From Prorocentrum cordatum (taxonomy: Eukaryota > Sar > Dinophyceae > Prorocentrales > Prorocentraceae): 64,000 bases of DNA. The DNA lies in the NCBI GenBank assembly GCA_963575745.1, contig CAUYUJ010022515.1, positions 493,766 through 557,765 on the forward strand, in the 5' to 3' direction. The position numbers and the translations under genes are program-made. The first letter of the stretch is position 1. Each line of letters begins with the position of its first letter. A model generated the notes under the pieces. The model did not search any database and had not been told where the DNA came from. It was given only the letters and a program-made list of their open reading frames with translations. Positions 1 to 34,776 of this stretch are shown here, one piece after another.

Positions 1-1170
1 GAGGACCCGCTCAAGCCGGCGGAGGTACAACGAGGTGTGCTTCGCTGGCGGAGGCTGGCGGGGGCTCGGTGGAAGCCACCCGGAGTAACCTCCCACGAAC
101 GCCAACGCCAGCGTCCACAGTTTTCTGGATTTGGCCAAGTGGTGGTGGGATGATTGTTTGGATCGGATTCTCAGGGCCTCAGGATTTCCCACCGGCATTC
201 GTGGGCAGGTTGTGTTGTTCCGACTCCATTGCCCGATCCGAATGATTCATCACGCATTATTATCCTCCGTCTCCCGTCCACTCGCAGGTGTGTTCTTCTT
301 TTGGCTTGGTCCGCTCCGCTTCTGCAATCGAGCGTGATTTTCTTCGAATGCATGCTTATCGTCGGAGAGGTGCAGATGATCGTGGAGCTCTGGGTGCCTG
401 CTGTTTGCCTAGGCCTAACATGCGCATCCTTCCTCAACGCACGTGCGACGCAGCAGTACATCGGATGGATTGCGCCCGCTATCTCTGATCGGGCGGATGC
501 ACATCGGAAGTCGCGGTTGGCCAAGTGGTCTTCGTGCCACGTGTTTGCTCACCGACTCCATGGCAAGTAGCGATCATGCGGGCCACGGGAGCTTTACTGA
601 GGTCCCATGCCCGCAGGAGCATCAGCTCCTTTTCCTCTCGATCCTCGGCAGCCGCTGAGGAAGGGTAGCGCCGTGCTTGGTCCAAGGCGCTGTCACCTTC
701 GCTGACACAGTTCCCTTGGAAAAGCACCCCGTCACCGCTGCCGTCGTCTCGGCAATGATCACTCGAAAGGCAGGGTGAGGTGCATTCGTCGCACCAGCGA
801 CGTTTCTCCGCGCCCACGAGTTGGAAATTACGTGCACATGTCATCAACATGCGTAGATGCACGCACAGCTTACTAACACACGTGTCTACCAGCAAACTGG
901 AAAACAAAAAACAACACGACGCGGCTAGCCTGGGGAAAAGCTGGATTGCGGCCAGATGTCTTTCTGGAGCTCGCCCCCTCTCTGGCCGGGCACGCTGGGC
1001 TTCTACATGTGTATGCAGCGCGTGGCCTCCAGATGTTCCACATGTGAATCCAGTCATGCGTTTTTTCGTCCCCCCTCCGGGGCGGAGACTTCTCCATAAC
1101 CACCGCCTCGGGGATCCATCTTCGAGAGGACCTTGGCAGGCGGTCGGTATGGATATATTCGGGCCTCCTA
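1..1170. other. No recognised gene
   Basis: Non-repetitive GC-moderate sequence. Short open frames exist on both strands, the longest 192 codons at 479-1057 on the minus strand, which includes a CDEC-type Cys pair and a stretch rich in Glu, Leu and Arg. I recognise no family in any of them. The same sequence recurs at 29213-30382 with identical translations, so conservation between the copies gives no test of coding. Confidence 0.5.
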
Positions 1171-1177
1171 GGGTCTA

Positions 1178-1225
<48 letters not shown>

Positions 1226-1258
1226 CATACGTATATTTATATATATATATATATATAT
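1178..1258. repeat. (AT)n microsatellite
   Basis: About 80 bases of nearly pure AT dinucleotide broken by a few GTAT and ACGT interruptions, able to fold back on itself. The second copy (about 30390-30480) is 10 bases longer, one of the few differences between the two blocks. Confidence 0.95.
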
Positions 1259-1348
1259 CCAAATCCACCGGTCTCTGAGGTCCCAGGATATCGGTTTCCC
1301 AGGCGGTGGATGTGCATCAATCTCCGCCTCGCACTGGTACGCAGTACA

Positions 1349-1533
1349 CGCCGGTCGCTGAAAGTAGGTATTGTGTTGGATTCCCAGGCCCCAATCTACT
1401 TTAGGCGCCTCCCTACATCAAGGGTCGAGCGGCTTTCCCTCGTCCCTCCTCTTCAGTGGGCGGGCGGAAACCCAATCTATTTCCAGCGCTTTCTTACTTC
1501 ATGTTTCTTCCCACTTCTTCCGACTGGCGGGTA
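1349..1533. repeat. 185-bp repeat, left member of a pair
   Basis: This segment matches 4231-4413 with scattered substitutions over its whole length. Each member contains GAAAGTAG near its start and the reverse complement CTACTTTC about 35 bases later, then several further CTACTTC-like words. The two members flank a 2.7-kb stretch of GGCCGTCTTGGG-type repeats like terminal direct repeats, but no LTR signals, primer site or target duplication were seen. Duplicated again at 30571-30755. Confidence 0.7.
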
Positions 1534-1699
1534 AGTCTACGCCTCGCATTGGTACGCAGCACGCGTTTCGCGCTCTGCCACGTGGCGCTCCGCGGTCGGC
1601 CTGCTCTCTGCTGGCCCTCTGCGGTCGCCAGATCTCCGGATCCCACCACCCCTGGCCACTCGGGCCCCTGGCACGTGGACGCACTGCTCTGCTTGATTG

Positions 1700-4010
1700 G
1701 GTTCCGTGGGGTATGGCGGCCTCCTGGAGGCTCCTCTCGCTTCGCGGGGTGCACGTCCGGAGCCCGTCCAGTCCAGTCGTTGCGGTGCCTGGTGGGAGTC
1801 TTTCTTGGGCGCATTGGAGGCTTCAAGGGGCATCTTGGGGGCTTCTTTGGGGCCTCTTGGGGCCTCTTATGGGCGTCTCGGGCCCTCTTGGAGCGCTCTT
1901 GCGCCGTTTGGCCCCTTCGGAGGTCGTCCTGTGGGCCTCTCGCGTCCGCCTTGGGGCTCTCTTGGGGTCCTCTTGGGCCGTCTTGGGGTTCTCTTGGACT
2001 GTCTTGGGGGCCTCTTGAGGCTGTCTGTGGGCGCTCTTGAACCGTATTGGGGTCTTGGGCCGTCTTGGGGCCATTTTGGAGGCTGCTTGGGCCATCATGG
2101 GCCTCTGAATGTAGAGAAAGGCTAGGACGCTAAAATCCCTTAAACACCTCTGGAGGCGCTCTTTGGGGTCCTCTTGGCGCCCTCTTGTGCCGTCTTGGGA
2201 GCTTTTTGGCACCTCCTTGGGCCATCTTGGACTGTCTTGGGGCCGTCTTGGCCCGTGCTGAGGCAATCGTGAGCCGTTTTGACGCCCTCTGAGACCCCCA
2301 GGAGGCCCATGGGGCCTTAATCATACATGTTCCATAAGCCGGGCCCAGAGGATCCTCCATTTCTGGTCGACGGAAGTGGCGTGGCCTCGGGACGAGTGGC
2401 AAGGGGGGTTACAGTACCACGCAAATCAGATGTAGCAGTTTTGTAGTATTGGATGCATTGGATACGTTATATTATGACGTTCGTCGAAAAACGCTGCCGC
2501 TCAGCACGTTACCTCCAGACGTGGATTCCTCTCGCTTCGCGGGGTGCACGTCCGGAGTACGTACAGTCAAGTCTTTTTGGGGGTTCTCGGGAGTCTCTTG
2601 GTGACTTCTTTGGGGTCTCTTTGGGCTTCTTGGGGACGTCTTGAGCCGTATTGGGCGTTGTTGCGCCGGTTGGCCCCTGCCGAGGCCGTATTGGGGGCCT
2701 CTCGGGGCCGCGTGGGGGCTCTCTTGGGGTCCTCTTGGGCCGTCTCGGGCCTCGGGGGCACCTTGGGCCGTCTTGGGGACCTCTTTGGGCCGTCTTGGGG
2801 CCCTCTGGAGTCGTCTTGGGGTCCTCTCGGGCGTTTCTTGAGCCGTCATGGGGCGATTTTGGAAGCTGCTTGGGTCGTCAGGAGTCGAAAACATAGAGAA
2901 CGCGAATTTGTTTCAAAAACCTTCCGGAAAATCAATGGTTTGGGTTTGCGGAGGCGCTATTGGGGCTCCTTTGGGGGCCCTCTTGGGCCGTCTTGGAGGC
3001 TTTTTGGGCCCTCGCGGCTATCTTGGGCTGACTCGGGGCCGTCGTGTGGCCGTCTAGGGCCCATCGTGAGCCATTTTGAGGCCCTCTTGGGCCCCTGGGA
3101 GGGCCTCGGGGCCCAAATCATAGATTTTCCATCGATTTGGGGGGTTTTTGAAACCCAGAAGGGGTCCACCATCTTTGGGTCGGTGGATGTGGCGTGGCCC
3201 CTGGGGGGGTTAGGGGGAGAAATTATAATGTAACGCGTTGCAGCTTGTAGCCATTATGCAATCATCGCATACATCAGATCATCAGATACGTTGCATTAAG
3301 GCGTTCGCCGGAAAACGCTGCCACTCAGCACGTCACCTCCGGACGTGGATTCCTCTCGCTTCGCGGGGTGCACGTCCGGAGCACGTACAGTCCAGTCGTT
3401 GTCGGGCCTCGGGGAACTTCTTGGAGGCCCCTTGGAGGCCTCTTTGGGGCCGCTTGGGTCCTCGCGGGGGCGTCTGGGAGGCCTCTTGGGGGCCTCTGGG
3501 AGGCCTCTTGGGGGCCTCTCGGAGCCCCGTGTGGGCGTCTTGGGGGCGCTCTTGCGCTGTCTGGTCCCTTCGGAGACTGTCTTGGGGTATTCTTGGGCCG
3601 TCTTAGGGGCCTCTTGGAGCATCTCGGCGTCCTCTTTGGGCTGTCTGGGGACCCTTTTGGGCCGTTTTGGGGCCCTCTTCAGGGCTTCTTGGGCCGTCTG
3701 GGGGCCACTTCGGAGGCTGTTTCGGCCGTCCTGGACTCTTGAGAGTAAAAAAAGGCAGGAACGCTGACATCTTTTTTTACATGGGGAAATCAATGGTGTT
3801 TGGCTTTGGAGGTGCTCTTGGGGGTCCTCTGGGGGCCCTCTTGGGGCGTCTTGGGGTCTTTGTAGGCCCTCTTAGGGCCATCTTGCGCCGTCTTGGGGCC
3901 GTCTTGGGCCGTCTTGAGGCCGTCTCGAGCCGTCTTGAGGCCTTGTAGGGCCCCCAAGAGGGCCAACATGCTCAACTCATTGATTTTCTATGGGTTTTGG
4001 TAGGTTTTTA
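1700..4010. repeat. Three 0.8-kb higher-order repeats of GGCCGTCTTGGG-type units
   Basis: Three modules start with a shared header containing CTCTCGCTTCGCGGGGTGCA at 1734, 2529 and 3353 (spacings 795 and 824). Each then runs through a degenerate 11-12-bp array of GGCCGTCTTGGG and GGGGCCTCTTG words, a short AT-richer break, more array, and a closing segment. All six frames stay open for long stretches, giving Gly/Leu/Trp/Ser-rich or Pro/Arg/Lys-rich translations in each, so this is a minisatellite and not coding. The same unit recurs at 18270-18895 and in the duplicated block at 30922-33232. Confidence 0.9.
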
Positions 4011-4149
4011 GACCCAGGAGGACGTTTTGAAGAGGAACGCTTGGCATCGATCGGACGTGTGCATTTTTTCCTCGGCGAGGACCATGGAGGAGCATCCTGG
4101 ATGACTCAGCGATAAAAGCACGCACGACACCGAACAGTACACGAGCGAT

Positions 4150-4640
4150 TGCGAGAACGTGGCCCGCCCATCCGTCCGTGACGCTGCTGCAGACTTTTAG
4201 CACGAGGGCTCGCGGAGATGACACGGTAGCCACCGGTCGTTGAAAGTAGGTATTTCTGGATTCCCAGATTCCAATCTACTTTCAGCGCCTTCCTACTTCA
4301 AGAGTCGAGTGGTTTTCCCTCTTCCTTCCTCTTCAGGAGGCGTGCGCAAACCCAATATATTTCCAACGCCTTCCTACTTCATGTTTCTACCTACTTCTTC
4401 CGACCGATGGGTAACCACATGTTGACCAAGGGCCCGCCCTCCATCCTGGAAGCTGCTGCACACCTTTTCACACGAATGCTCGCGGCGCTGGGACGAGAGC
4501 CACATGTTTAGAACGCCCCGTCCCTCCATCTGTGAAGCTGCTGCAAGTTTCCGGCTTTGGGATCACAAACCGTGAGGACATCTCTCCGGCGAAACGCACT
4601 GTCCGCCCTACCGACACGTCTGCGGTGGGGGGGCGCGACA
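4150..4640. repeat. Dispersed ~80-bp satellite units
   Basis: Degenerate units containing GCGGCGCTGGGACGAGAGCC, then CCCGCCCTCCATC and GTGAAGCTGCTGCA. The same family forms the arrays at 26270-26720, 27220-27690 and 28380-28790, where it likewise ends next to a GGA tract. About two and a half units are present. Confidence 0.7.
4231..4413. repeat. 185-bp repeat, right member of a pair
   Basis: Partner of 1349-1533; see that entry. Here the inner GAAAGTAG / CTACTTTC inverted words are better preserved. Duplicated at 33453-33635. Confidence 0.7.
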
Positions 4641-4672
4641 AGGAAGTGTGATTTAAAAGGGAACGGTATGGA

Positions 4673-4907
4673 GTAGGAGGAGGAGGAGGAGGAGGAGGAG
4701 GAGGAGGAGGAGGAGGAGGAGGAGAGGAGCAGGGGGAGGAGAGGAGGAGGAGGAGGAGGAGGAGGAGGGGAGGAGAGGAGGAGGAAGGAGGAGGAAGAGG
4801 AGGAGGGGAGAGGAGGAGGGGGAGGAGGAGGAGGAGGAGGAGGAGTGAGGAGGAGGAATGAGGAGGAGGAATGAGGAGCAGGAGCAGGAGCAGGAGCAGG
4901 AGGGGGT
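4673..4907. repeat. (GGA)n tract
   Basis: About 235 bases of GGA repeats with AGG/GAG variants and a terminal GCAGGA run. Copy 2 (about 33895-34105) is 24 bases shorter. Open frames through it (poly-Gly/Glu or poly-Pro/Ser/Leu) are repeat translations. Confidence 0.95.
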
Positions 4908-5297
4908 GGAGGAGAGTATGGCGGAGGTAGGAGAAGGGAGGAGGTCTGCATGTATTGTTTGCTCCCCCTGCCTTCCTATCTATACTTGTCCAATTCCTGT
5001 GTCGCTCACCCAGCTCCTCCTCCTCCTCCTCCTTCTGTTCCTCCGGATTCTCGACAGACAGCTGACCATGCAGGCTTAAAACCAGGACATTCGACAATTG
5101 ACGAGTTGTTCACGTGTCACATTCTCCGGGAGCGCGCGCACACGAATGGAACCGAAACCTGTGGGATGCATTAATTTCTGTTCGCAGTGAGTTGTCCACT
5201 CCACTGCTCGCGCAAACATCCCACCCACCCACCCGCAACTTGGTTTGCAAAATCTCTTAAGACCGTGACGGTGGGTACCACATGGCACTTGGCAACA

Positions 5298-5543
5298 ACA
5301 GCGACGCCGACGACGACAGCGACAACGACGATGACGACGCCGCCGACAACGACTACGACGACACCGACGACGTCTCCAACGACTTCGACGACGCCGACAA
5401 CGACGACGACGACGACACCGACGACGACGACGACGACGACACCGACGCCGACGACGACGACGATGACAAGACGACGACGATGACGACGCCGACGACGACG
5501 ATAACGACGACACCGACGACGACGACGACGTCAACGACGCCGA

Positions 5544-5575
<32 letters not shown>

Positions 5576-6060
5576 ACGCCGACGTCGACGACGACGAAGA
5601 CGACAACGACGCCGACGCCGACGACGACGAGACGACGACGACGTCGCCAACGAAAACAACGAGGAAGGAGGGAGGACGACGACGGCGACAACGACGACAA
5701 CGACGAGGGAGGAGGGAGGACGGCGACGACGCGAACGACGAAGAAGGAGGAAGGACGGCGACGCCGACGACGACAACGACGAGGGAGGAGGGAAGACGAC
5801 GACGACAACGACGACGACGACGACGGCGACGAAATAGGAGGGACGACGACGAGACGCCGACGACGGACGACGACGACGACGAGGGAGGAGGAGGAAGGAC
5901 GACCACGGCGACAACGACGACGGAAACGACCACGACGCCAAAGAGGACGACGACGACGAACACGAGGAAAGACAGAGGACGACGTAGGCGACGACGACGA
6001 CGACGACAACGACGCGGGAGGAGAGAGGACGGCGACGACGACGACGACGACGACGCAAGA
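5298..6060. repeat. (GAC)n trinucleotide tract
   Basis: About 760 bases dominated by GAC/ACG with interspersed GCC, GGAGG and AAC words. All frames are open because the unit is a codon: poly-Asp, poly-Thr and poly-Arg forward; Val, Ser and Arg in reverse. Frame changes along the tract and absence of non-repeat sequence argue against a gene. The duplicate at 34496-35285 is 28 bases longer. Confidence 0.95.
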
Positions 6061-6495
6061 GCGCGCGCGCACGCTTTGGTTGAACATCCGTTTTGCGAAA
6101 CCTTGTGGTTTTGTAGGTTTTTTGGACAAACGATTTCCAAACCCTTCCGAAACCGATGGGTTTTGAAGGTGTTCGGCTTACGCGCGCGACGACGCGCGCG
6201 TCTGCACTTCGTCCTATTTTTCGCAGGGGTTTCTCGCGACGGCACATGCGCAACGGCGTTCGACAGATTTCGACATGAGCGCGCGCGAAGCCCGTTTGGT
6301 AGCATTATGTGAAAATCGTTAAAAACGCATGGCTTCCTTAAGATTTCGCCAGAGCTTTCGCGGAAGCTGGTTTAGCAACTCTGTGTTGCGAAACCCTATG
6401 TTCTTGTATTCCCAACCCTCCTGCGTTGGGTTCTCGTTTTGCATAGAGCACTGCTCGCGCGAACCTTCCTTCCTTCCCGTCCTTCGCTTCCCCCC
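6061..6495. other. Spacer between GAC tract and satellite, no gene recognised
   Basis: Contains a segment around 6100-6230 (GCGCGCGACGACGCGCGCGT followed by a CATTTCGTC-like word) that is clearly similar to 37680-37800, so it is itself a dispersed repeat. No gene recognised; copied at about 35287-35720. Confidence 0.6.
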
Positions 6496-6499
6496 TGCC

Positions 6500-7163
6500 T
6501 GGGGGCTGCGATCTGTGAAACTGACGCCACTTTCGAGGGCTGTTGAGGGGCCCAGCACAGTGGGTACCCCCCGCAGATTGAAATTAGACCTCGCCATCCC
6601 TGGGGGGGCTGCGATCTGTGAAACTGTCGCCACGTTCGAGGCCTGCTGAGGGGCCCAGCACAGTGGGTACTCACCGCAGACTCAAACTATACCTCGCCAT
6701 CCCTGGGGGGCTGCGATCTGTGAAATTGTCGCCACTTTCGAGGGCTGCTGAGGGGCCCAGCACAGTGGGTACCCACCGCAGATTCGGAAAAATCAAATTA
6801 GACCTCGCCATCCCTGGGGGCTGCGATCTGTGAGCTGTCGCCCACTTTCGAGGGCTGCTGAGGGGGCAACAGCACAGTGGGCAACCCACCGCGATTCAAA
6901 TTAGACTCGCCATCCCTGGGGGGCTGCGATCCTGTGAAGGCTGTCGCACTTTTCGAGGGCTGCTGAGGGGCACAGCACAGTGGGGTAATCACCGCAGAAT
7001 CATATTAGACCCGCCATCCCCTGGGGGATGCGATCTGTGAAACCGTCGCCACGTTCGAGGGCTGCTGATGGGGCCCAGCACAGTGGGTACTCACCGCAGA
7101 CTCAAATGGGACCTCGCCATCCCGGGGGGGCTGCGATCTATGAAACTGTCGCCACTTTCGAGG
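6500..7163. repeat. 102-bp satellite, truncated by the gap
   Basis: About six and a half tandem units containing CTGCGATCTGTGAAACTGTC, GAGGGCTGCTGAGG and CAGCACAGTGGGTAC. Units near 6780-7030 carry extra or missing single bases relative to copy 2, which keeps a regular 102-bp period. The array runs into the N gap. Confidence 0.95.
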
Positions 7164-7263
7164 NNNNNNNNNNNNNNNNNNNNNNNNNNNNNNNNNNNNN
7201 NNNNNNNNNNNNNNNNNNNNNNNNNNNNNNNNNNNNNNNNNNNNNNNNNNNNNNNNNNNNNNN
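7164..7263. other. Assembly gap, exactly 100 N
   Basis: A run of exactly 100 N, the usual placeholder for a scaffold gap of unknown size. It lies between the truncated 102-bp satellite and a short (GA)n run (7264-7284). Adjacency across it should not be trusted. Confidence 0.99.
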
Positions 7264-7516
7264 AGAGAGAGAGAGAGAGAGAGATAGCGGCCTCGGACCC
7301 GGGGCGGCAGCTCAGCTTGAGCAGCAATCTGGAGCGCGTGCCTCCTCGCGTCTGGACAAGAACGCAGAAGTTTTTGAATGCCGAAGTCGCGAGAAGCTTC
7401 GCCAGGGCCTCCACGGGAGACGCAGGGCTGATGCGAAGGATAAGGGGAAGCCGAGTCTGCGAGGCGGGGCAGTGTCCGCGGACGTTGTGGCCGCGCAAGA
7501 GCCGAACGAGAGCGCC

Positions 7517-8620
7517 ATGACGCACCTCGCGCACCCGCTCCCACCGGAGATGGATCTAGGAGAGATGCTACGCGGGAAGCCAGCGCGAGAGAGATGCTCG
7601 GAGGGCGCGTGGAGTTGCGATCATCTGCATACCAAAGGGATGCCGAATATCGGAAACTCATGTTTCGCGAACGCCGTAGTGCAAGTGTTGCTACGACTCG
7701 GGCACATTCGGCAAGCAGTGTGTCGCCACGGGGGCGCGTGCACCGCGCGGTCGGCAACGCGGCGCGGCGTGCGTGCGTTGGCCGAGCAGGCAGGCCTGAT
7801 GAACTCAACCACGGCGGAGCTCCCGGCCACCGAGCGAGAACAAGCGCCGGCAGTGACAGCGACGCGATCTGGATTTTTTTCAGCACGGGCGCCACAACGA
7901 TTTCCGAGGTAATCGGCAGTGCGATGCGAGCGAGCTTTGGAGTGCCATGGTGGAGACAAAGTGCGGAGTCGGCAGCGTTGAGTAGAATGGCAGCGCAACC
8001 GCCTCGGGACTCGTTCGTAGACGAGTGCGTGCTCGGGTACGCAGTGTGTCAACGACGGTATTGCGCGGGATGCGGATGGGTCTCGGACTTGTACAGACGA
8101 GAACGATTCATGACTATTCAGTTGTGGGAGCACGCGGAACATTCAGAGCCCTTGTGCTTCGGCGCCTTGGTCGGAGTGCACGCGCGCGCTGCGCAGTATG
8201 ATTTGCCGCGTCCTCATCGGCCGGCGTTGCCGGAGGGCGAAGTGTGGGACGGTTGCCAAGGGCCGTCGCAGGCACACGACATCCCTGCGGTTTCGCCGCC
8301 GCCGTTGCTGACTGTAGTTCTCAGTAGAAGGATGCCTCATGGGATGGACAGGGTGAACGCTCGCGCGAGGATCCCGCGAGAGATCGGATGGCCATGCAAT
8401 GACAGCATCAAGTACCGGCTCCAGGGTGCAATCTGTCACCTGGAACGTCAAAGCCATTATGTTGCGCATTGTGGTTGCCCTGGGGTAGGTGTTGTCAGGT
8501 TCGACGACGGCAATGTTACTCGAGTGGGGTTTGCAGGGTTTTCTGGCTGCGAGAGAAACCATGTGGATGTTGCCGTCGTTGTTTTGGCGCGGGCTGCGGC
8601 AGGTGGGACATCGTCTGCAG
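7517..8620 (+). pseudogene. USP (C19) deubiquitinase domain, frameshifted
   Basis: The Cys box GMPNIGNSCFANAVVQVLL lies at about 7640-7695, with the catalytic Cys codon at 7661-7663. A QDA-type box (RQCDASELW) follows at about 7914-7940 in another frame, then a CAGC zinc-finger half near 8070. The His box (KYRLQGAICHLERQSHYVAH) has its catalytic His codon at 8455-8457 and is followed by VVRFDDGNV. This order is that of ubiquitin-specific proteases, which cut ubiquitin from targets. Two frameshifts separate the boxes, one probably at the T homopolymer at 7874-7880. The start is the first ATG (7517) in the Cys-box frame; the frame is open upstream to the gap, so the true N-terminus may be missing. 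The domain is co-directional with the Rep/helicase and separated from it only by linker, which supports one polyprotein. Confidence 0.82.
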
Positions 8621-9381
8621 GCGGCGGAAGCGAGTTGCCATCCGCGGGCGGCTCTGCTGGCGCAGAACAGCGCGCGGACGCTCCCCGCGCGAGCGTTGAA
8701 GGCGAGATGACAGGAGTTTCGAAAGGCGCGAGTGTGGGGCGGGACACAAATGGGAGTGGCAGCGTTGATGCGACGGTAAAGAGGACGCGGGTCGATGGAC
8801 ACAAGGGAGCGGACACGTCTCGGCGCAGCTCGGTGAATGACGAGGGTTGGCGGGGGCGAGCCGACGGCGGCGAAGGAGAAGGCACAGTGCGAGGTGGGCC
8901 ACTCCCGGACAAAGCGGGCGCCAAGGATCGCTCTTCAGAAGACCACGTGGGAGCTGGCGGGCGGGTGGATTCGACAGGGGCGGGCTCGGGCGTGCCGGCG
9001 CCGCCACCACCCGGTAAGGAACGTGGGGCAAAGGGCGCCGAGGCACGCAAACGGCGGCGGGCTGGAGCAAGCATCGGCGCCAGCGGCAATGCGAAGAAGG
9101 CTGTGGTTGCGTCGTGGAGTGGTGGGAGGTGCAACGATGGGGCTAGCTGCGCTGGCGAATGTGCGAGAGCCGCGATTGGGTCGGCAGTCGGTGGCGATGA
9201 GGAAACAGTTGTGAAGCAAGGGGACGACAGGGCAAAAGGGCAGAGCGTCGGAGACGGGGCAGCACGGCAAAGGGAAAGAGTGACGTCTGGCGGGGCGACG
9301 GAACCACGGGTTGACATAGGCGCGATGGGCGTGGACGGGGCGCCGCTTGGTGGACGAGACCCTTTCAGGGGGCGTGGTTGA
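8621..9381 (+). pseudogene. Disordered linker after the USP domain
   Basis: Continues the His-box frame for about 250 residues rich in Gly, Ala, Ser, Arg and Asp with no predicted domain, ending at a stop at 9379-9381. The minus strand is also open here (within 8457-10517, 686 codons), a composition effect of GC-rich third positions; that strand has no motif and is not called. The next domain begins in an overlapping frame at about 9347, so a frameshift lies between 9347 and 9381. Confidence 0.6.
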
Positions 9382-9919
9382 CGGCGATGACGGCGCCCCC
9401 GCGGCAGACGCCATGCAGAAGGCTTTCTATAATGTTTGTGTAGACGCGTCGTCGAAAGATCCTCGGCGGGCCCGAGAACTCCTCGCGGCAGCTGCTGCGG
9501 CAAGGGCGAGGCGACGCCCAACGGTGCCTGCGGATCCAGACGATCCCGCGCAACCTTGGTCGCGAGCACTGGCAGAGGACATGGCTGTCGAGTTGCCAGC
9601 CGTGCACTGTGCGTTTGTGGGGTGTACGTGGCAGTCGGAGGACGTAGACGAGTTGTACGGGCATGTCCGCGAGGTGCACGGTGCCGTCGTGATGCCAATT
9701 GCCGACTTTTTTCATCCTGAGGACGAGGGCGAGGATCTCCGCGTCGCGGCAGCGTACCATGCGATCGTTGCACATGCCGTTCGGGGTGGGGCGCCGCTGT
9801 CGGCAAATTCCCTTCACAGAAGGAGTTTGGCCAGGTACGCGGAAGCAACGAAGCAGAAAAGCATAGCGTCTCCGATATGCTTTCTATGCGCGTGCACGTT
9901 TCCATGGGTGGAAAGCTGA
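9347..9919 (+). pseudogene. C2H2-finger segment of the Helitron protein
   Basis: A 190-residue segment with an acidic/Ala-rich lead and a C2H2 finger (HCAFVGC then ELYGHVREVH) at about 9604-9680. A helical YHAIVAHAVRGGAPLSAN-like stretch and a second Cys pair (PICFLCAC) at about 9873-9896 follow. The layout parallels the C-terminal third of the intact minus-strand protein at 23052-24428 (C2H2, YRKR, then an EAAC..CA motif), which links both to one family. The frame ends at a stop at 9917 while homology-like sequence resumes in another frame at 9954. Confidence 0.65.
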
Positions 9920-9953
9920 CGAGGGAACCAGATCTTCCTGGGAGCGGCCGTTC

Positions 9954-10754
9954 ATGGCATCCGAAGCGGACCCGAGTGTAGTGAGTCGATTTGGCGAGTG
10001 GGCCATGCCGGACGTGCACGTGCGTTTCAGCGTCGACGCATACTTGCGAGACTACCGGTTCGAACCAGGGAACGAAGCGTTGGACTTGGAAAGAGATGCG
10101 TGGTACCGAGAAGACTTCACCGATTAGCTCGTGGCAGTCCCGACGTCCCGCGGTGAAGTGCAAATTCTGTGTTGTCCCGAAGATCAACGTTGCCACAGGG
10201 GGTGCCAGGAGAAGGGAGTGGCATGTCCCGAATGCAGAGTGCCTCTTTGCGTGGAGTGCAAGGTGGAGGTGGGCGCGCCATATCGGTGGCGAGCAACTGC
10301 GATCCCAGCAGTCCCGCGCTGGAGTCTTGCGAATGACTTGATGGTGTTCTATTCGCCAGATCGCATGTACACAGAAGGCATGACCGTGATGGAGATGATT
10401 TGCTGCAGCCCTTGCGTTACGTCGATGATATGCTTTTCGTTGGAGGTAAAGTTTCAGAACGACCGTGAAAGCAGCAAGGGCAGGGAAAACCTGTTTGACA
10501 GCGCCGCGGGGTTCCACAGCGGGCGTCTGGCAGCGCGAGGCAATGCCACGAGCTTCATGCTACCGTGGCAGGAAATATTGCGAGAGCTCCGTCAGCTCGA
10601 GAAGGAAGGGCGCCAGGGAAGCGATTCGGCGGTGCCGGTCGCGGGTGATCGGTTGGGGTCGGTGGTGCAAATCTTTCTCAATATCAACGACGCCGCTAGT
10701 AAGGACAACCTGCCGGTTTCATACATCAAGCGAATCTGCGGCGCGAAGTGGTGA
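9954..10754 (+). pseudogene. Cys-rich N-terminal Rep-associated module, one nonsense codon
   Basis: One frame runs from ATG 9954 to about 10716 with a single TAG at 10126-10128. Upstream of the TAG the peptide (VDAYLRDYRFEPGNEAL) is ordinary coding-like sequence. Downstream comes a Cys cluster (LCCPEDQRC, CQEKGVACPECRVPLCVEC) and then LANDLMVFYSPDRMYTEG and TVMEMICCSPCVTSMICF. I recall these as characteristic of dinoflagellate Helitron proteins upstream of Rep. From about 10716 the sense frame shifts: the bases at 10720-10750 read as HQANLRREVVKRH in the frame used by the next segment. Confidence 0.7.
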
Positions 10755-11945
10755 AGCGCCACATCAAGATGATGAAGCAGCGCGGACACCGGGCCTTCGT
10801 GAACGTCAACGTGGAGGCGATGGAGAGAAAGGCTGAGCAGTTGCCGAAGGACGGCGTGCCGCCTGAGATTGTCCGGCCGCTGCCGCATGACACAACGTTG
10901 GACAAGCTCATGGTGCAGAAGAATGCGACGCCCTGTGATGGGGCGCGAGAATCTGTGGGAGCGGCCGCGCGCGACATGGACTTGCGTACGCCGAATGCCG
11001 TCATGATGGAGAAGTCGTCGGTGGACGAAGTGGACGCGAACAAGTTGAGGCAGGGTGCGTTTGAGCATGTGCCTGGCAGGTCGCCTGCAGAGCACGAAAA
11101 TCGAGGTCCAGGCGCACGCGCGGCCGTGCAGGCAGGTGCATTGGCCATGGAAACGAAAAGCTTCGTACTGCGTCTGGCAAGTACGTGGACGGGCAGGTGT
11201 GACAGGCCCGAGTGCCCGTGCGGTGGAAATAGAGACGAGCGCGCTCTTGCGAGGACGAGCAGAATGGGGGACAAGGCCGCTAACGTGGATACGGAGACAC
11301 TGCAATTTCGGCTGTGGGAGATGCTGGAAACGGACGCGTCTCGCATTAGGTACGTGGTGTATCCAGGGCGTGCGATGATGAATCAGTTTGTTCCGTGGTT
11401 TTTCGGTGTGGCATTCCCGTTCTGTCTCAAGTGCGGTGTGGGGGTGCCGGACATGCCCGAGTGGCAGGAAAATGCACGACATCGACGTGGCCCAGCGGCG
11501 CCCCGCGTGGAACTGGCTCTGTGGGCGCGCATCATGACGCGTCGGGTGGAGTCTCAATTCTGGCGTGAGTGGCCGTTTGGTTTTACGGTGTCGTCGGTCT
11601 TGTTTCAAAGTTCCGTGAATATGGCCCTGTCCGTCCGCTTGGCGGACTATAGGAAGGACGGAGAGACGGAATGCCAGTATTCGCAAGGTGAACTCGAGAA
11701 GGCAGCCGTGAGCATCGTGGATGCTTTGCATGGTACGTACAAGGATCCGTCAACCGGGAAGCCCACCAAAGTGCGCGGAGATTTCTCGAAGCTGAAATAT
11801 GTGCAGTCGCTCGACCCGATAGCGAAACGATTGGCTGCAGGAGCCAGCGCGGTTGCTCGCAGGATTGAAGGGACAAACGAGGTGCGGACGCTCATGAGGT
11901 ACGACACCCATGCTGCTCGAATCGCCCAGACGAGAGGCACAACCT
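10716..11945 (+). pseudogene. Rep N-terminal region (Helitron_like_N-type)
   Basis: About 400 codons, including MKQRGHRAFVNVNVEAMERK, a PECPCGG Cys motif, AMMNQFVPWFFGVAFPFCLK, an aromatic-rich stretch (VESQFWREWPFGFTVSSVL) and GTNEVRTLMRYDTHAARI. The last resembles the start of Helitron Rep (motif 1 region). In this frame a stop ends the segment at 11950. The bases from about 11919 read in another frame as DERHNLVMVRLSRSRKNDPV, the expected continuation, so a frameshift with a small deletion has removed the short FVT-type motif 1 that normally sits between the two. Confidence 0.75.
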
Positions 11946-13741
11946 GGTAATGGTGCGGCTGTCGCGGTCGCGAAAGAACGACCCCGTGAATCGTCGTGCG
12001 GCGCGGGCGCTTCACGGCCCAACGCATGGTGGGTTGTGGGAGCCGTCGCTGGCGCACAATGATGAAGTATCTGGAGACGCCGTGACAAGAGATCGGCGCG
12101 AGCAGGCGGGCGAGGGCGGATCGGGCACAGAGGGGGCAAAGGGCGACGACGACGTGGACATGGCAGTACCTCTGGCGATGTTGGCAAATGCCGTTCCCGC
12201 GTCGGACGAGAGAAGAGCCGTGCTAGCTCGGGACCCGCTGGCGGGCGTTGACGGGTTTCGGGTCATCGTGGGCCTTGTATTTGAGTACATGCTGGGCATG
12301 CGGTATTGTCCGAAATCCCCAGATTGCGAGTGCGCGGACTTGCTTGGCAGCAGCGCGACGGCGGCGGGCGGGTGCTCGGGCCGTGTGGACGGGGTGTACG
12401 GCAGCATTGAAGCTCAGAAGTCGGCGGGAAGTCTGCATTTGCACGTGCAAGTCTTCGTTCAGTGTTTGCACCAGCATAGTCCGTTGCACGAACTGCTACA
12501 GCTGCCGACAGATGTGCTTAAGGGGCTGGTAGAAGAGTACAAGAGGTACAAGAGAAACGCGAGTCGTCAGGAGTACGCTGACGTAGAAGGCTGGAGGGAC
12601 AGGAAAACGGAAGTGGAGAAGGCGTGGCCCTCGTACCGCGAGACCGCGGATCTGGTCGCAGCGCCGGAGTACTTACACAGCGGCCAGACTAATGGGTTGG
12701 GAGAGACGGAAGGAGGCGGTAGAAAATCAACGAGCGGCGATGGGGCAACAGAAAATTGGAACAAGGGAAGCGAAGAAGGGCGAACCTGGCTGCAAGAGTA
12801 CCTCGGCGTCCGGGTGCAAAAGTGGCAGGAGTTTCGACAGAAGCACGTGCGCCAGTGGAGTAAGCGTTTGCAGCGCGTGGTACCGTTGGCACATTGTCAG
12901 AGGAAAGATGGCATGACGCAGTGCAGAAGCTTTTTCCCGCGCGCGACGTGACTCATCGATCGCGCAGTGGTGTTATGCCAAGGCTTTTTGCAAAACCAGG
13001 ACATGCCGCGAGCAGGGAGGAGGAACATGACAGGGTGCTTGCACGGGCCCATGAACGGAGAGAGCCTGAACGGAACGCTGCCTGCGATGCTGAGCGGTGC
13101 GGTAGGGTTGAATTTTAACAGCGATTTGCAGATCGCGCACAGGTTCCCAGTGACAGAAGCTACGCACGATAGTTGGGTGTGCGAAGAGCGGTGCTGGGAA
13201 GCAGATCGACCCAAAGACATGGTTCTGGCAGCGCAACGAGCGCAGAATGCAGCAGCGGGGTACGCGGCGGACTATCAGTGCAAGCGTTGTGCCCCGTCCT
13301 TCAACGAGGTGCGGGAGATCAAAAAAGGTCATCACGCGCTGGCGGAGCAGACGAAAGACAGGACCGCGGCGTACCGAGCGAATAGGCACATGAAGAGGCT
13401 TCTCAGTGACATGCACGGGAGAGGCGTGGTGCGGTCAGCGCAGGAAAGTGCGAATCTGCGAGCGTACCGAGACCCAAGAGACGTGACTGGTGCCGAGAGT
13501 ATCAAGACTGCGAAGACAGCCATGATCCCGGGAGCAGAGGCAGTGCGCATGGCGGACCGGCTCTGTGCAGATGGGGACGGTGTCACCGTAGAAGCGTCGG
13601 GGATTCTGGAAGCGGACAAACGAGAAGGGATGAAAAAGCGTCGAATTGTGTCTAAGAGTCCAGTGTACTTGTATGGCATGCGGCCAGTGGACGCTCCTGG
13701 TGCGCCCGACTTGGCACATTTATCATTGTATGAGTTTTTGT
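11920..13741 (+). pseudogene. Rep catalytic domain: HUH and Y2 motifs, TGA at 12949
   Basis: GVYGSIEAQKSAGSLHLHVQ carries the His-hydrophobic-His (HUH) metal site at codons 12436-12444. GYAADYQCK has the spacing Y-x3-Y-x2-K expected for the two catalytic tyrosines, at 13261-13263 and 13273-13275, with Lys at 13282-13284. These are the nicking and strand-transfer residues of rolling-circle transposases and all are retained. A TGA at 12949-12951 interrupts FFPRAT-x-LIDRAVVLCQG in frame, where I expect Trp (TGG to TGA). The same frame continues to 13741-13743, where a second TGA sits in LYEFL-x-YWRIELA. Confidence 0.85.
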
Positions 13742-13743
13742 GA

Positions 13744-15530
13744 TATTGGCGCATCGAGTTGGCAGCATTTCCCCGCAGCGGAGCAGAGCTGGCAGCTGCG
13801 GCCAGCAATGAGTACCAGGCGGAGCTGACGCTGTCCGGTATTCAGAAGGTCCGCGAAGCAGACCAGCAGAGAGCGGACACTGACGAGGGCGGTGCGCAGG
13901 CCGGCCCCCAGTTGAAAGCCGGCGTGGATTATAAGATCAAGGAAGGATGGGGGGGTTGCTCGTGGGCCCCGTTTCCAGAAATTCCAGAGCTGGAAATTTT
14001 GAGGCGCACGTGGGTGCTGGTGCGAAACGAGCGCCCGAGAAACCGCAGTTTTCATGGAGCGCCGCAGCCGAAACACGGAGCGGGGCAGGAGGATAGGAAC
14101 GGGTTTTTGTTGATGGTATATTTCCGGGCCTCCACACTTCGTGACGATGTCGACTGTGGAGCGCCGCACTTGCGGGAGTTCCGCGGAGCGCAGGGGTCGT
14201 GGGCGGAAGCGTCTTTGGAGTGGTCAGAGAAAGGCATGCCATGTGGAGAAACAAAGAGGCACGTGCATAATTACATGAGCGTGGTGGATTTGAGACCAGT
14301 CACGGACGAAGGTCTAGTCAAGCACGAGGACGAGCTGTACAGCGATGAAGAACTGGACCCGAGAATTGTCGACGCGGCGACCAGGCGCAAGACGCGCGTG
14401 GGAGGCGCGCCCATGGAGAAAGAGGACAGGCGGACAAATGTAGACGCGGAGTGCGAAAAGGAGAAGAGCCAGGAGGCCATGGCCACGGGCGACGCCGTGT
14501 GGAGCGAGAGAACGAGTCGACAGAATGGAAAGCGCAAGAAGCGCGGAGAGGACGGTGTCTTGAGGTGGGATGACGCGGAAGTGCAGAAAGCGCAAGCGGT
14601 GGCCGCGGCGTCGAGGGCCGCAGAAGGCAGCGGCGCGGGTGGAGAAGAAGGTGCTCCGGAAGTGGTCACGGCCAAGAAAGCGACAGCGTCCAGTGTGCGG
14701 AGGTGGAGATCCGGTCTTGCGGATAGCGGGTTGAACGCGAGACAACGGAGCGTCGTTGAGAAGGTGGGAGATCGAGCATTGGCGCATGCATTCGCGAGTT
14801 CCGCGAGCGGAAGGAAAATAGGCCAGAGCCGTTATGATATGCAGCCCCTCGTGTGGACGTTGCATGGTGGCCCGGGGACGGGGAAGAGTTTCGTCATAGA
14901 TAAGATCCGAAAGGAGCTGTTCGAAAAAGAGTTGGGGTGGACGCACGGCATAGATTTTCAGGTGGCAGCGTTGCAGGCTACAAACGCGTCGGCTCTTGAC
15001 GGGAGTACGATTCACAGTGCATTTGGGCTCGGTGCGAGGAAAACGAAAGAGAAGGACGCGGCGGGCGATGCCAACGCAGAGGCGAAGAAGAAAACGCAGA
15101 AAGAGCAAGCCGCGCAGCGTATGTCACAGTGGAAGTGGCTGATAGTGGACGAGGTGAGTATGGCCAGCGCGAACTTCACTGCAGAGCTAGACTCCCACTT
15201 GCGGTCGTGCGTGTCAGCTGCAAGCGACACGAAGGTGGGTGAAGACGGCGTAACCAGGCCCTTCGGGGGCTTGAATGTGTTGTTCTGCGGGGATTTCTAT
15301 CAATGGGAGCCGCCTTCAGGGACAGCCATTAATGCGCTTCCGATGTCGTATTTGAAAAACGCGAGGAAATACGCGCCAGGTGCCACGGATGACCACGGGC
15401 AGAATATCTTTCGGGGAGCGGGTGGCGAAGGCGCAGTGCAGGGAATGACAGAATTGACAGAGTGCAAACGCGTGGAGGGTCAAGACGATTGGTTTCTCGC
15501 AGTGCAGGACGAGTTCCGCCGAAGGGGTTG
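13744..15530 (+). pseudogene. Pif1-type helicase, motifs I-III
   Basis: Continues the Rep frame. After about 370 residues of conserved linker comes motif I (HGGPGTGKS, 14863-14889), motif Ia with ATNASALDGSTIHSAFGLG (about 14980-15033), motif II (LIVDEVSM, 15139-15162) and motif III (GDFYQWEPP, about 15289-15315). This is a superfamily-1B helicase of the Pif1/Helitron type, which unwinds DNA 5' to 3' during rolling-circle transposition. Walker A Lys and Walker B Asp-Glu are intact. The sense frame shifts near 15522 at GGGGTT. The old frame runs on only to a stop at 15591, while GLSERTRNFLHG and the rest of the helicase follow in the new one. Confidence 0.88.
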
Positions 15531-16115
15531 TCGGAACGCACGCGCAATTTTTTGCATGGCAGACCGACGGACGCGCCGGGGTCGTGGGTGAACGGCGCAC
15601 CGTTGTGCGGGAACACGCGTTGTCTCAAAGACATAGAGGCAATTGCGAAGCAAAACGAGCTCGAATGTGACGCTTGCACAGCTGAGCGGGAGAAGAGACA
15701 GCTCGTTGCGACGTCGCCCGAAGATGCGCGGCTTCGGGAGGAGAAATTCCTTGAAGCGATCGCCATTTATGCGAATCAGGACGTTCGTTGCCACGTCGGG
15801 AGGCAGAGAGCTGTGCAGTTGGCGAAGGAGCGAGGAGAACAGCTGCCGCGGGTCGCAGCCAGGGACCGCCCTTGCCACGGGGGGGAACAGAGGAGGCCGC
15901 ACACGGTGGAGGATGAGATACGTTGGCTGGGGTACCACGAGAAGGAGTGCGCAAGCTTGCCCGGGTGGATGCCGTTGGCCAAGGGGATGCCGGTGGCTTT
16001 AGGAGATCACTTGGATCGGTCGAAAAGCAGCTTCTGCGGGGTCGCACAGCGACGATCCATGGATGGGCGTTGCACGAGGATGAGGTCGTTGGAGATCAGG
16101 ACGAGGAAGTATTGA
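15525..16115 (+). pseudogene. Helicase middle segment
   Basis: Reads GLSERTRNFLHGRPTDAPGS, then two Cys pairs (CGNTRC, CDAC) typical of the zinc-bearing insert of these helicases. It continues with EAIAIYANQDVRCHVGRQRA and WMPLAKGMPVALGDHLD, the conserved Pif1-type linker before motif V. Near 16020 the sense frame changes again: KQLLRGRTATIHGWALHEDE and VLMHLPRVIVLDF are read at about 16030-16150 in a third frame before returning at about 16150. Confidence 0.75.
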
Positions 16116-16149
16116 TGCATCTGCCGAGAGTGATTGTGTTGGACTTCCT

Positions 16150-17000
16150 TCCATGCGAAGGAGTGGCACCTGCCAGCGTGGGAGCCAGGGCTGTATCCAA
16201 TCATCCCATCGAAAGGGTGGCAATGGTTCTTGGACGGATATCGGGAGCATCCAGCATTGAGTGTGAAGCGCACGCAGTTCATGATCACCCCGGCTTTGGC
16301 AGTGGCGGCGCACTCTGCGCAGGGCCGGACCATGGCCGCAGTGATAGCAGACCTTGAAAGAGGGCGCGGCGTGAGTTGGATGTCAAGTTACGTTGCCATC
16401 GCGCGCGTGCGCAAGCGAGAGGACCTTTTGATTTTCCGGCCTTTTAATAGGAGGCCGCGCAACGCAGGCGAGATGGAGGGCGCGAAAAAATTGTTGCAGG
16501 TGCTACGAGGGGAGAGCCTCGACTGGGATGAGTGGGAGGCGGAACTGATGCCGCGAGACCAGTGCGACCGCTGCCTGCGGAGATTGTTGGCAGAGGCGTT
16601 CACGAAGTACGAGTTCCAGAGAAAGGAAAGGCCGGCGCTCTGCAAAGAGTGCACGGAGGAAATGACAAACGCGGACGAGAAATGGTGCAAAACGTGCAGA
16701 GGGTGGGCAACGAGAGCAGAGAGTGACGACGCGGTGCGCCATGTTCGCGGCCGGAACGCGGACGCGGCGGCCGACGACGGGGAGACAAAAAGGATTCGGA
16801 CAATGTACTGCGCGAAGTGCAGCCAAGTCAAAGCCAGGCAGAACTCGCGGAAAGGCAACGCGAAGTGGAACGAGAGCGTCGGCGCTGTGCGATGTGCGAA
16901 CGACAAGTGCCTGTCGCTGTATGACGAAAAGGCGGAGATGTCGGAAGCTCAGAAAAAAGCACAACGCTGCGGGGGACAGGCTCTGTCGGAAATGCGCTGA
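16150..17000 (+). pseudogene. Helicase motifs V-VI and first zinc repeats
   Basis: Motif V region MITPALAVAAHSAQGRTM (about 16278-16331) and motif VI YVAIARVRKREDLLIFRPF (about 16389-16445) complete the Pif1-type core. After LLQVLRGESLDWDEWEAEL comes the first Cys-rich unit (CDRCLRRLLAEAF then ALCKEC, about 16564-16653), a KWCKTCRGWA unit and YCAKCSQVKARQ. The Cys pairs around an Ala-Phe core resemble the Stc1-type zinc finger; this family assignment is inference. The frame ends at 17000; the sense continues in the frame below from about 16975. Confidence 0.8.
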
Positions 17001-17511
17001 AGAACGAGGGAAAGGGGTGCGACGGAGGAACGCGGAGGCAGCGAATCGCAAACGGAAAGTGCGCTGTTCGAACAATGTCTGTCGATCAATATTCCCGGAG
17101 GAGGCAGATATGTCCGAAGCCCAGAAGAAGCACAATGCTGCGGGGGAGAGGCTCTGTCGGAAATGCGCGGAGGAGCGGGAGAAGGCGGTTTTGCGCGCGA
17201 ATTGCGAGGCAGGGAATCGCAAACGGAAAGCCGAGGCGGAAGCGAAGCAGCTGGCGCGCGCGGCGTGCGGAGAAGCGTTCTCGGACACGAAACATTTGAG
17301 GCAGAACCAAGAAGAACATCATCGACGGGCGAATCAAACAAAGGTGGCGGGCGGAGGCTGCAAGGAACTCGGGTTCACAGCCCGCAGTTGCCAGGCGTAT
17401 CAGTGCAGCGGCGCGTGCAAGAGGAGACTGCCGAACTCGGCGTTCCCCAACCCGCGCAATGTCCCGCGCGATGCCAAAAAGGGCACACTGAAATGCAAGA
17501 CTTGTAAATGA
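16975..17511 (+). pseudogene. C-terminal tandem zinc repeats, Stc1-like
   Basis: Two near-identical units of about 50 residues (SEAQKKHNAAGDRLCRKCAE and SEAQKKHNAAGERLCRKCAE) are separated by a Cys pair (RCSNNVCRSIF). A C2H2-like CGEAFSDTKHLRQNQEEHH and a final CSGACKRRLPNSAFPNPRNV ... LKCKTCK complete the protein. The final unit fits an Stc1-type zinc finger (two Cys pairs with Ser-Ala-Phe between). The stop is at 17509-17511. The unit duplication probably arose by recent internal tandem duplication. Likely role, by analogy: DNA or protein contact of the transposase. Confidence 0.65.
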
Positions 17512-18204: not shown

Positions 18205-18245
18205 GAATGTCCCGCGCAATGTCCCGCGCGACGCCAAAAAAGGCA
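18205..18245 (+). repeat. Remnant of the Helitron ORF 3' end
   Basis: About 36 bases match 17455-17490, the codons of the last zinc repeat (NVPRDAKKGTLK), with a few substitutions. The match stops before the final Cys pair. It is followed within 30 bases by a GGCCGTCTTGGG-type array, so the junction marks either an internal 3' duplication or a second, mostly lost element. Confidence 0.75.
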
Positions 18246-18269
18246 CCCTGAAGAGCGGCTTGTGCGGTG

Positions 18270-18895
18270 ATCGCGGGGGTCTTTTGGGGGGCTTCTCGCG
18301 GGACTCTTGGAGGCAGTTTCGAAGCCTCTTTGGATCCGTTTTGGGGCCGTTTGGGGCCCTCTTGGAGGCCTTTTGGAGCTTCTTCGGCGCGTCTTGGGGG
18401 CCTCTTGGGGCCTCTTGGATCCTTCTGTGGCCGTCTTGGGGCGGAAGGCTCGGATTGTCGTTTCTAGCTCCCCCTCTTGGGCCCCTCTTGGGGCCGTCTT
18501 GGGGCCCTCTTGGGCCGTCTTGGGGGCCTCTTGGGCAGTCTTGGCGCCTTCTTGGGCCGACTTGGGCGCCTCTTGGGGGCCTCTTGGGCCGTCTTGGGGC
18601 GGTCTCGGGGTGCTCTTGGACCGTCTTCAACGCCGTAAAGGCCGACAAGTCGTATATGATGAAAATGTACGTCTTCCCCCAAGGAATTGATGATTTTCGG
18701 CTCTTCGGCCCTTCGGAGGACTGTTCTTGGAAGCCTCTTGGGCCGTCTTGGAGGCCTCTTGGCTCGTCTTGGGGCCATCTTGGGCGTCTTGGAGCGCTCG
18801 TTTGGCGTCTCGGGGCCCTCGTGGGCCGTCTTGGAGCCGTCGCGAGGCCTTCTTGCCCCGTCTTGGGCCTTTTTGGGGCCCAAAAGAGCCCGTGA
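18270..18895. repeat. GGCCGTCTTGGG-type minisatellite array
   Basis: The same degenerate 11-12-bp unit as at 1780-3950, broken near 18600-18720 by an AT-richer insert as in the modules of the first block. Gly/Leu/Trp-rich open frames on the plus strand and Pro/Arg/Lys-rich ones on the minus strand are repeat translations. G homopolymers of 8 to 10 follow at 18911-18985. Confidence 0.9.
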
Positions 18896-19039
18896 GTCGC
18901 TCGCGCCGGGCGGGGGGGGGGGGGCCGGGGGGGGGGGGTCAAATCTCCGGTTTGGGGTCCCGGGGGGGGGGGTATGGGGGGGGGGACTATCTCACACGCC
19001 TAGAGACCCACAGGGTTCGTCGGATATCAAGGCTTTCCG

Positions 19040-29024: not shown

Positions 29025-30389
29025 GGCTCCACGGCCGCGAGCCACAGGCCGCCAAGGCCGCCGCCGTCAGCAGCAGCAGATTGAGGGCGAGGAGGAGGGG
29101 AAGGTGCATCCCTCGGTGCAGGCAGGGCGTTCAGAAAGGGGCCTCGTTGCCTGGGGCTCCGTTTTGTGTGCGGGTGGGCAGAACGAAAGGGCTGACGCAT
29201 TTCCCTCGGCGGGAGGACCCGCTCAAGCCGGCGGAGGTACAACGAGGTGTGCTTCGCTGGCGGAGGCTGGCGGGGGCTCGGTGGAAGCCACCCGGAGTAA
29301 CCTCCCACGAACGCCAACGCCAGCGTCCACAGTTTTCTGGATTTGGCCAAGTGGTGGTGGGATGATTGTTTGGATCGGATTCTCAGGGCCTCAGGATTTC
29401 CCACCGGCATTCGTGGGCAGGTTGTGTTGTTCCGACTCCATTGCCCGATCCGAATGATTCATCACGCATTATTATCCTCCGTCTCCCGTCCACTCGCAGG
29501 TGTGTTCTTCTTTTGGCTTGGTCCGCTCCGCTTCTGCAATCGAGCGTGATTTTCTTCGAATGCATGCTTATCGTCGGAGAGGTGCAGATGATCGTGGAGC
29601 TCTGGGTGCCTGCTGTTTGCCTAGGCCTAACATGCGCATCCTTCCTCAACGCACGTGCGACGCAGCAGTACATCGGATGGATTGCGCCCGCTATCTCTGA
29701 TCGGGCGGATGCACATCGGAAGTCGCGGTTGGCCAAGTGGTCTTCGTGCCACGTGTTTGCTCACCGACTCCATGGCAAGTAGCGATCATGCGGGCCACGG
29801 GAGCTTTACTGAGGTCCCATGCCCGCAGGAGCATCAGCTCCTTTTCCTCTCGATCCTCGGCAGCCGCTGAGGAAGGGTAGCGCCGTGCTTGGTCCAAGGC
29901 GCTGTCACCTTCGCTGACACAGTTCCCTTGGAAAAGCACCCCGTCACCGCTGCCGTCGTCTCGGCAATGATCACTCGAAAGGCAGGGTGAGGTGCATTCG
30001 TCGCACCAGCGACGTTTCTCCGCGCCCACGAGTTGGAAATTACGTGCACATGTCATCAACATGCGTAGATGCACGCACAGCTTACTAACACACGTGTCTA
30101 CCAGCAAACTGGAAAACAAAAAACAACACGACGCGGCTAGCCTGGGGAAAAGCTGGATTGCGGCCAGATGTCTTTCTGGAGCTCGCCCCCTCTCTGGCCG
30201 GGCACGCTGGGCTTCTACATGTGTATGCAGCGCGTGGCCTCCAGATGTTCCACATGTGAATCCAGTCATGCGTTTTTTCGTCCCCCCTCCGGGGCGGAGA
30301 CTTCTCCATAACCACCGCCTCGGGGATCCATCTTCGAGAGGACCTTGGCAGGCGGTCGGTATGGATATATTCGGGCCTCCTAGGGTCTA

Positions 30390-30447
<58 letters not shown>

Positions 30448-30480
30448 CATACGTATATTTATATATATATATATATATAT
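30390..30480. repeat. (AT)n microsatellite, copy 2
   Basis: Ten bases longer than its counterpart at 1178-1258. Confidence 0.95.
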
Positions 30481-34495: not shown

Positions 34496-34730
34496 ACAGC
34501 GACGCCGACGACGACAGCGACAACGACGATGACGACGCCGCCGACAACGACTACGACGACACCGACGACGTCTCCAACGACTTCGACGACGCCGACAACG
34601 ACGACGACGACGACGACGATGACGACGACGACGACGACGACGACCGACGACGCGACGACGACGCCGACGACGACGACGATGACAACGACGACGACGATGA
34701 CGACGCCGACGACGACGACGTCAACGACGC

Positions 34731-34776
<46 letters not shown>

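Follow-up and report, generated by a model that had tools for sequence, protein, structure and literature searches.

Passages of PMC9741609 that deal with ubiquitin removal describe Helitrons and Helentrons that carry an OTU domain besides or instead of a VTD domain. The same passages note that Helitrons seem to gain from deubiquitination by different enzyme classes and suggest that OTU and VTD domains protect proteins needed for transposition, and those that mention ubiquitin-specific proteases (USPs) place none in a Helitron. Helitron ends are treated in passages of PMC5148889, in which the canonical type (Helitron1) has the motif CTRR at its 3' end and a hairpin 10-12 nt from it, and Helitron2 has asymmetric terminal inverted repeats with hairpins at both ends. 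Here we analysed a Helitron-type element in a 64,000-nucleotide stretch of the Prorocentrum cordatum genome (GenBank assembly GCA_963575745.1, contig CAUYUJ010022515.1, forward strand positions 493,766 to 557,765), referred to as the window and used whole for all coordinates below. As judged from sequence, a deubiquitinase-type module belongs to this element and comes in at least three unrelated kinds among its relatives, two USPs designated USP-A (the kind in the window) and USP-B, and an OTU.

Compared with the OTU- and VTD-bearing elements in the passages of PMC9741609, the P. cordatum elements are alike in that the open reading frame of a rolling-circle RepHel element includes a deubiquitinase. 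They differ in that the class is USP and not VTD, that no endonuclease was found and that two unrelated USPs and an OTU are exchanged on one backbone of ~87% DNA identity in one genome. With Helitron2, as presented in the passages of PMC5148889, they share an HUH/Y2 Rep and PIF1-type helicase, a 3' hairpin, a non-canonical terminus and the lack of an endonuclease, in a comparison that covers the 3' end. Unlike Helitron2 they have a deubiquitinase-type module at the N-terminus of a very long protein, which in OTU-type copies measures 3738 aa from stop to stop. The initial annotation of the window had named OTU-bearing Helitron relatives as a precedent and was aware of no described USP version; likewise no USP-bearing Helitron turned up in the literature searched, which left out most subscription journals and in which module swapping was not searched separately. 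As far as seen, the USP class on a Helitron, the presence of two unrelated USPs and the exchange between closely related backbones are new here.

Proteases upstream of the shared backbone

The assembly (4.13 Gb, 21,875 contigs) was searched at the DNA level with window positions 7500-17511 and the best 16 of 1882 candidates were scored. These 16 copies were 87-88% identical to the window over the main stretch, with similarity starting at 8879 or later, and none of them covered the USP boxes. Upstream stretches were examined for 14 copies. USP-B was present in five (C15600, C21449, C15199, C4152 and C20610) and an OTU-motif protease in eight (C1480, C20398, C1337, C10169, C12337, C17119, C816 and C13276), and neither was among the listed open frames of C15837. 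Five of the eight OTU copies were a single open frame of 3738 codons running from the protease through the Cys-rich tail. When the Cys-box and His-box parts of the window USP were compared by tblastn with loci L009-L042, the only matches were four weak ones to the Cys-box part (best E 0.007), located inside the Rep-helicase core and not upstream, a failure that was the first sign of other proteases in other copies.

Each module and Rep were then used as separate queries, scoring the best 68 of 3033 candidates for Rep, 138 of 378 for USP-A, 138 of 181 for OTU and 107 of 1445 for USP-B. To be counted with a Rep, a protease had to share its strand and lie no more than 8 kb upstream of it, and equal open-frame lengths of the protease and Rep matches were taken as one frame. 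The crossing took in 68 of 68 Rep rows, 33 of 140 USP-A rows, 22 of 102 OTU rows and 38 of 106 USP-B rows. Among the best 68 Rep loci an OTU was found in 12, USP-B in 23, USP-A in 5 and two kinds in none, with protease-Rep gaps of 2.3-4.2 kb (~2.7-3.3 kb for the USP-A pairs). Protease and Rep shared one open frame in 7 OTU copies and 11 USP-B copies, and USP-A and the shared linker formed one chain in database protein P0009. Three copies outside the 68 Rep loci (C126, C15234 and C18709) had a USP-B Cys-box piece (78% identity over 60 residues) ~2 kb ahead of the USP-A match, with equal open-frame lengths. The initial annotation had anticipated that copies lacking the USP would speak against it; 12 copies do lack a USP and have an OTU, but there the OTU fills the same place as another deubiquitinase-type module.

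With the C-terminal half of the window USP-A as query we obtained at least 140 matches in the genome (from the best 138 of 378 candidates, some loci in several pieces). Some lay in long open frames, of 4240 aa in C13221 and 4238 aa in C17058 (76% identity each) and of 4743 aa in C126 (53%). The intact stretch of C13221 (L043), 82% identical to the window in DNA, carried all three boxes (Cys, QDA and His) in a single frame and matched the Pfam UCH profile with 56.4 bits (E 4.4e-15, model positions 2-238 of 254, cut-off 23.9). Its nearest solved structures were yeast Ubp8 (E 2.5e-7) and then human USP36 (3.3e-5). USP-B also exceeded the UCH cut-off over the full model length (47.5 bits in C15600, 32.5 bits in C15199) and was closest, weakly, to USP15, USP46 and USP12 (E 5.9e-4 to 0.01). 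Like these cellular USPs, both element USPs have ordered Cys, QDA and His boxes and UCH scores over the cut-off; unlike them, they are fused to a transposase and their sequence similarity is low. No similarity between USP-A and USP-B was seen by BLASTP (E 9.9), and because of this and their different closest structures the two are probably separate acquisitions, the alternative being a very deep divergence.

The third module had an OTU fold with Cys and His motifs. An identification from the motif alone was rejected, as Pfam gave no match for the L034 piece at E<=0.1, and the fold was tested for that reason; the fold check (VIA) was a re-alignment of Foldseek's own candidates only. A EukProt protein labelled Pyramimonas sp. 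(P0002) matched 64% of the OTU-module query at a listed identity of 100%, with one residue differing by eye. It may be a contamination or a transfer between algae, and it may hint at transcription of the OTU module.

Some further copies stood apart from this pattern. Six Rep copies (C2709, C14487, C16939, C18795, C18277 and C13305) each had a Rep open frame of 1348 aa and 98% identity over Rep query positions 1-541 only, with no protease found within 8 kb upstream, and are possibly a spreading deletion derivative without a protease. In C18085, where Rep is covered by L004, and in C9813 a Helitron_like_N match was followed, ~3.8 kb downstream and in the same orientation, by an OTU match (47% and 44%); this genome may have a second Helitron type that carries the OTU at its other end. 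Helitron_like_N was plentiful, with at least 151 matches from the best 150 of 1615 candidates, all listed rows over the cut-off and several in open frames longer than 2500 aa. Viral contigs scanned with Rep gave one locus with an 18-residue match.

Selection and partner changes

To compare the modules with their backbone, the ratio of nonsynonymous to synonymous rates (dN/dS) was calculated. Between the two USP-B subfamilies dN/dS was 0.37 for the USP (6 pairs, mean 298 codons), 0.26 for Rep, 0.31 for the helicase and 0.15 for the finger. For the C-terminal half of USP-A, 216 codons compared between the window and C13221, it was 0.39, and the two shifted frames gave 0.85 and 1.28. Both USP kinds, whose values are close to that of Rep, show purifying selection between diverged copies.

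Trees of four regions of the backbone grouped the copies in two ways. In the finger and N-terminal Rep region (9390-11300) the OTU type paired with USP-B2 and USP-B1 with the window, with an ultrafast bootstrap support of 100. In three regions downstream of ~11300 the two USP-B subfamilies paired with each other and the OTU type with the window, with supports of 90, 86 and 100; the 14700-16700 tree was made without C21449, which was too short. The modules have probably recombined, and the change of partners beside the protease junction fits module exchange, although this comparison of trees is not a formal recombination test.

The window copy and the element ends

The USP-A module of the window lies at 7646-8589 and is spread by decay over three reading frames. 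Its Cys, QDA-like and His boxes are in the correct order on the + strand, but each is in a different frame, so the window copy is broken. The Pfam UCH profile scored 17.8 bits on the Cys-box open frame and 13.4 bits on the His-box open frame, under the cut-off of 23.9 and suggestive only. A 645-aa open frame (7444-9381) contains the C-terminal half of USP-A together with the shared linker, whose start at 8879 is where homology to the USP-B copies C15199, C4152 and C20610 begins. Downstream, at 9389-17508, there are several frame changes and stops relative to an intact relative.

The features are collected below. The catalytic Cys and His positions given in the initial annotation (7661 and 8455) were exact, and the USP boxes, HUH motif, Y-x3-Y-x2-K motif and helicase follow one another on the + strand in the order it had given. 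Its central proposal, a Helitron-type transposase with an N-terminal USP, agrees with the 645-aa frame, P0009 and the 11 single-frame USP-B/Rep copies. The content it assigned to 7517..17511 held up and the extent did not, as the 3' terminus is near 19024.

Features of the element copy in the window (positions in the whole stretch)
Feature	Position	Strand	Evidence or remark
N gap of 100 bases, assembly join directly upstream of the USP	7164..7263		
USP-A Cys box NIGNSCFANAVVQVLL; catalytic Cys codon 7661-7663	7646..7693	+	Frame 2; Pfam search and intact counterpart L043
USP-A QDA-like box RQCDASELWSAM	7914..7949	+	Frame 0; in one frame with the Cys and His boxes in L043
Cys-rich motif CQRRYCAGCGW within the USP	8047..8079	+	Frame 1
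USP-A segment PPLLTVVLSRRM, the counterpart of the USP LKRF segment	8299..8334	+	Pfam search and motif position
USP-A His box CHLERQSHYVAH; catalytic His codon 8455-8457	8434..8469	+	Frame 1
Shared linker	8879..9381	+	Within the 645-aa frame of the USP-A C-terminal half
C2H2-like finger, first half, HCAFVGCTW	9605..9631	+	Pfam 15.7 bits, under the cut-off of 27
DUF6570 match	10311..10589	+	21.6 bits, under the cut-off of 24.3; 27.7 bits in an OTU-type copy
HUH motif of Rep, LHLHVQVF	12433..12456	+	
Two-tyrosine (Y-x3-Y-x2-K) motif of Rep, YAADYQCK	13261..13284	+	
PIF1-type helicase core; Walker A HGGPGTGKS 14863-14889, Walker B region 15139-15165	14839..15312	+	59.3 bits, E 5.3e-16
Cys-rich C-terminal tail, last frames before the stop	16588..17511	+	
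Element 3' terminus, ACTATCTCACACGCCTAGAGACCCACA..., short hairpin at the end	18986..19024	+	Placed within a few bases; common end in 7 other copies with different flanks

The PIF1-type helicase, C-terminal to Rep, scored 61.3 bits in an intact copy by Pfam. Helitron_like_N reached 22.8 bits (E 1.1e-4) in an OTU-type copy, under the cut-off of 28.9, and the window pieces had no match at E<=1. The seven copies with a common 3' end (four OTU, three USP-B), each followed by a different flank, terminate in ...GGGGTCGGC(G/A)GA with a hairpin at the very end, and the window end is similar and slightly altered. Their common end sequence is ...CGCCTAGAGACCCACAAGGGGTCGGCGGA, from which C15199 differs by one base; C1480 lacks this end and diverges ~400 bases earlier. 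The canonical arrangement, CTRR at the 3' end and a hairpin 10-12 nt from it, was absent from the seven copies and the window, and no endonuclease family was among the Pfam matches at E<=0.1 in one 3738-aa OTU-type frame scanned as two pieces. With no canonical CTRR end and no Helentron endonuclease found in these sequences, the term Helitron must be taken broadly. The fetched stretches contain the 3' hairpin and stop short of the 5' end. A boundary of the OTU group at L033:2870 was considered as the 5' end of the element and dropped, as the other seven copies share sequence farther upstream.

In the window itself the N gap interrupts the sequence directly upstream of the USP. This gap is at the end of the first copy of a 7.1-kb repeat (window 1-7129 and 29213-36345, 98.3% identity, 29.2 kb apart). 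The USP-A stretch has a further 100% copy on the same contig outside the window (C21666:472978-473817), 28.6 kb upstream, and the repeat and this second copy could reflect a true tandem duplication or one made in assembly. A 102-nt repeat forms arrays at 6500-7163 and 35726-37578. G/C/T-rich phrase repeats of ~10-21 nt occur at ~1770-4020 and again at 18217-18878 in the 3' untranslated part of the element, and the USP-B1 copy C15600 has similar sequence upstream.

Possible roles of the module

Taken as a whole, the data are best explained by a decayed non-canonical Helitron with an exchangeable deubiquitinase module acting in cis, to which we assign a probability of about 0.6. Its parts differ in strength: a large non-canonical Helitron encoding one long chain is nearly certain, module swapping among copies is very likely, and protection of the transposase or of local proteins as the main role has even odds. 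The predicted chain would comprise the deubiquitinase, linker, finger, HUH/Y2 Rep, PIF1 helicase and Cys-rich tail, in that order. The module would act in cis: linked to the Rep-helicase, it would be present at the donor or target site and take ubiquitin off the transposase itself, blocking its proteasomal turnover; it might also deubiquitinate chromatin or repair proteins at the nick. Modules would be swapped via recombination in the linker and finger region. We favour cis-protection because of the architecture and the exchange between enzyme families, and because two protease folds and different USP subfamilies occupy one slot, selection probably acts on the removal of ubiquitin as such and not on a particular substrate or chain type. 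Together this suggests that ubiquitin removal aids the jumping or survival of these elements. A more specific version, towards which we lean slightly, is that the deubiquitinase slot is a core Helitron part refilled by two USP lineages and an OTU via linker recombination, that conflict with the host ubiquitin system drives this cassette exchange, and that C126, C15234 and C18709 are fossils of one replacement in progress.

Several results weigh against this reading. In 28 of the 68 Rep copies the 8 kb upstream yielded no protease on the same strand. The protease rows omitted from the crossing were inspected by eye and none lay on the contigs of these 28, but the number is an upper bound, as only the best candidates of each search were scored. 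USP-A and Rep shared one open frame in none of the five pairs, which were collinear with unequal open-frame lengths, and two of the 11 single-frame USP-B copies (C669 and C17132) had one TGA inside the Rep match. Within the USP-B subfamilies dN/dS was ~1 (1.07 and 1.05), a value that dead copies would be expected to show, and for the OTU it was 0.72 at a synonymous divergence of 0.02, among copies too alike or young to tell. Support in two of the four trees was below 95, the usual bar for ultrafast bootstrap, so that the conflict is firm only between 9390-11300 and 14700-16700. The OTU was identified by its fold and motifs, with weak Pfam scores and no Foldseek match at E<=0.001.

A different role for the protease would be to edit mainly host targets at the cut site, such as ubiquitylated histone H2A/H2B, PCNA or repair factors, and so steer repair or chromatin. 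The nearest solved relatives of USP-A, Ubp8 and then USP36, point in this direction, as Ubp8 is a histone H2B deubiquitinase. A rolling-circle nick, which yields single strands and forks, is also in keeping with this role. The nearest relatives of USP-B, however, are USP15/46/12 (weakly, best 5.9e-4) and an OTU fold occurs in the same slot, so no single host substrate is indicated, and we consider host targets rather unlikely as the main role.

Two explanations would deny the module any function in the element. USP and OTU host genes or exons might have been captured by chance and carried as passengers without a role, as Helitrons often pick up neighbouring genes according to passages of PMC7928374, and the 28 Rep copies without a protease found are in keeping with this. 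Capture of passengers is already disfavoured by 18 copies that have the module in the same slot with equal open frames, by dN/dS of 0.37-0.39 against 0.85 and 1.28 in the shifted-frame controls, and by three unrelated captures that were all deubiquitinase-type, and we regard it as very improbable. Alternatively, the USP could be a separate host gene brought beside the Helitron by insertion or by an assembly error at the N gap, for which the gap itself and the second exact USP-A copy on the contig would speak. But the gap lies to the left of the USP and not between USP and Rep, and five other USP-A/Rep pairs occur on other contigs with gaps of ~2.7-3.3 kb. Moreover, both the window and P0009 have USP-A in frame with the linker. 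A juxtaposition by assembly or chance was therefore rejected, and a separate gene is already refuted for USP-B and OTU. A host USP gene was rejected as well on account of open frames equal to those of Rep, and this explanation retains hardly any credibility.

The convergent acquisition of deubiquitinase activity proposed in the initial annotation is now more strongly backed, with USP-A, USP-B and OTU on the same backbone. If an exchangeable deubiquitinase module acting in cis is the right explanation, the USP class would join the deubiquitinases recruited by transposons, and close elements in one genome would be able to exchange the enzyme class while keeping the type of activity. One transposase with three deubiquitinases, plus copies in which none was found, would offer a natural experiment on why Helitrons carry deubiquitinases. 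For biochemistry, these elements would also provide unusual USP and OTU domains.

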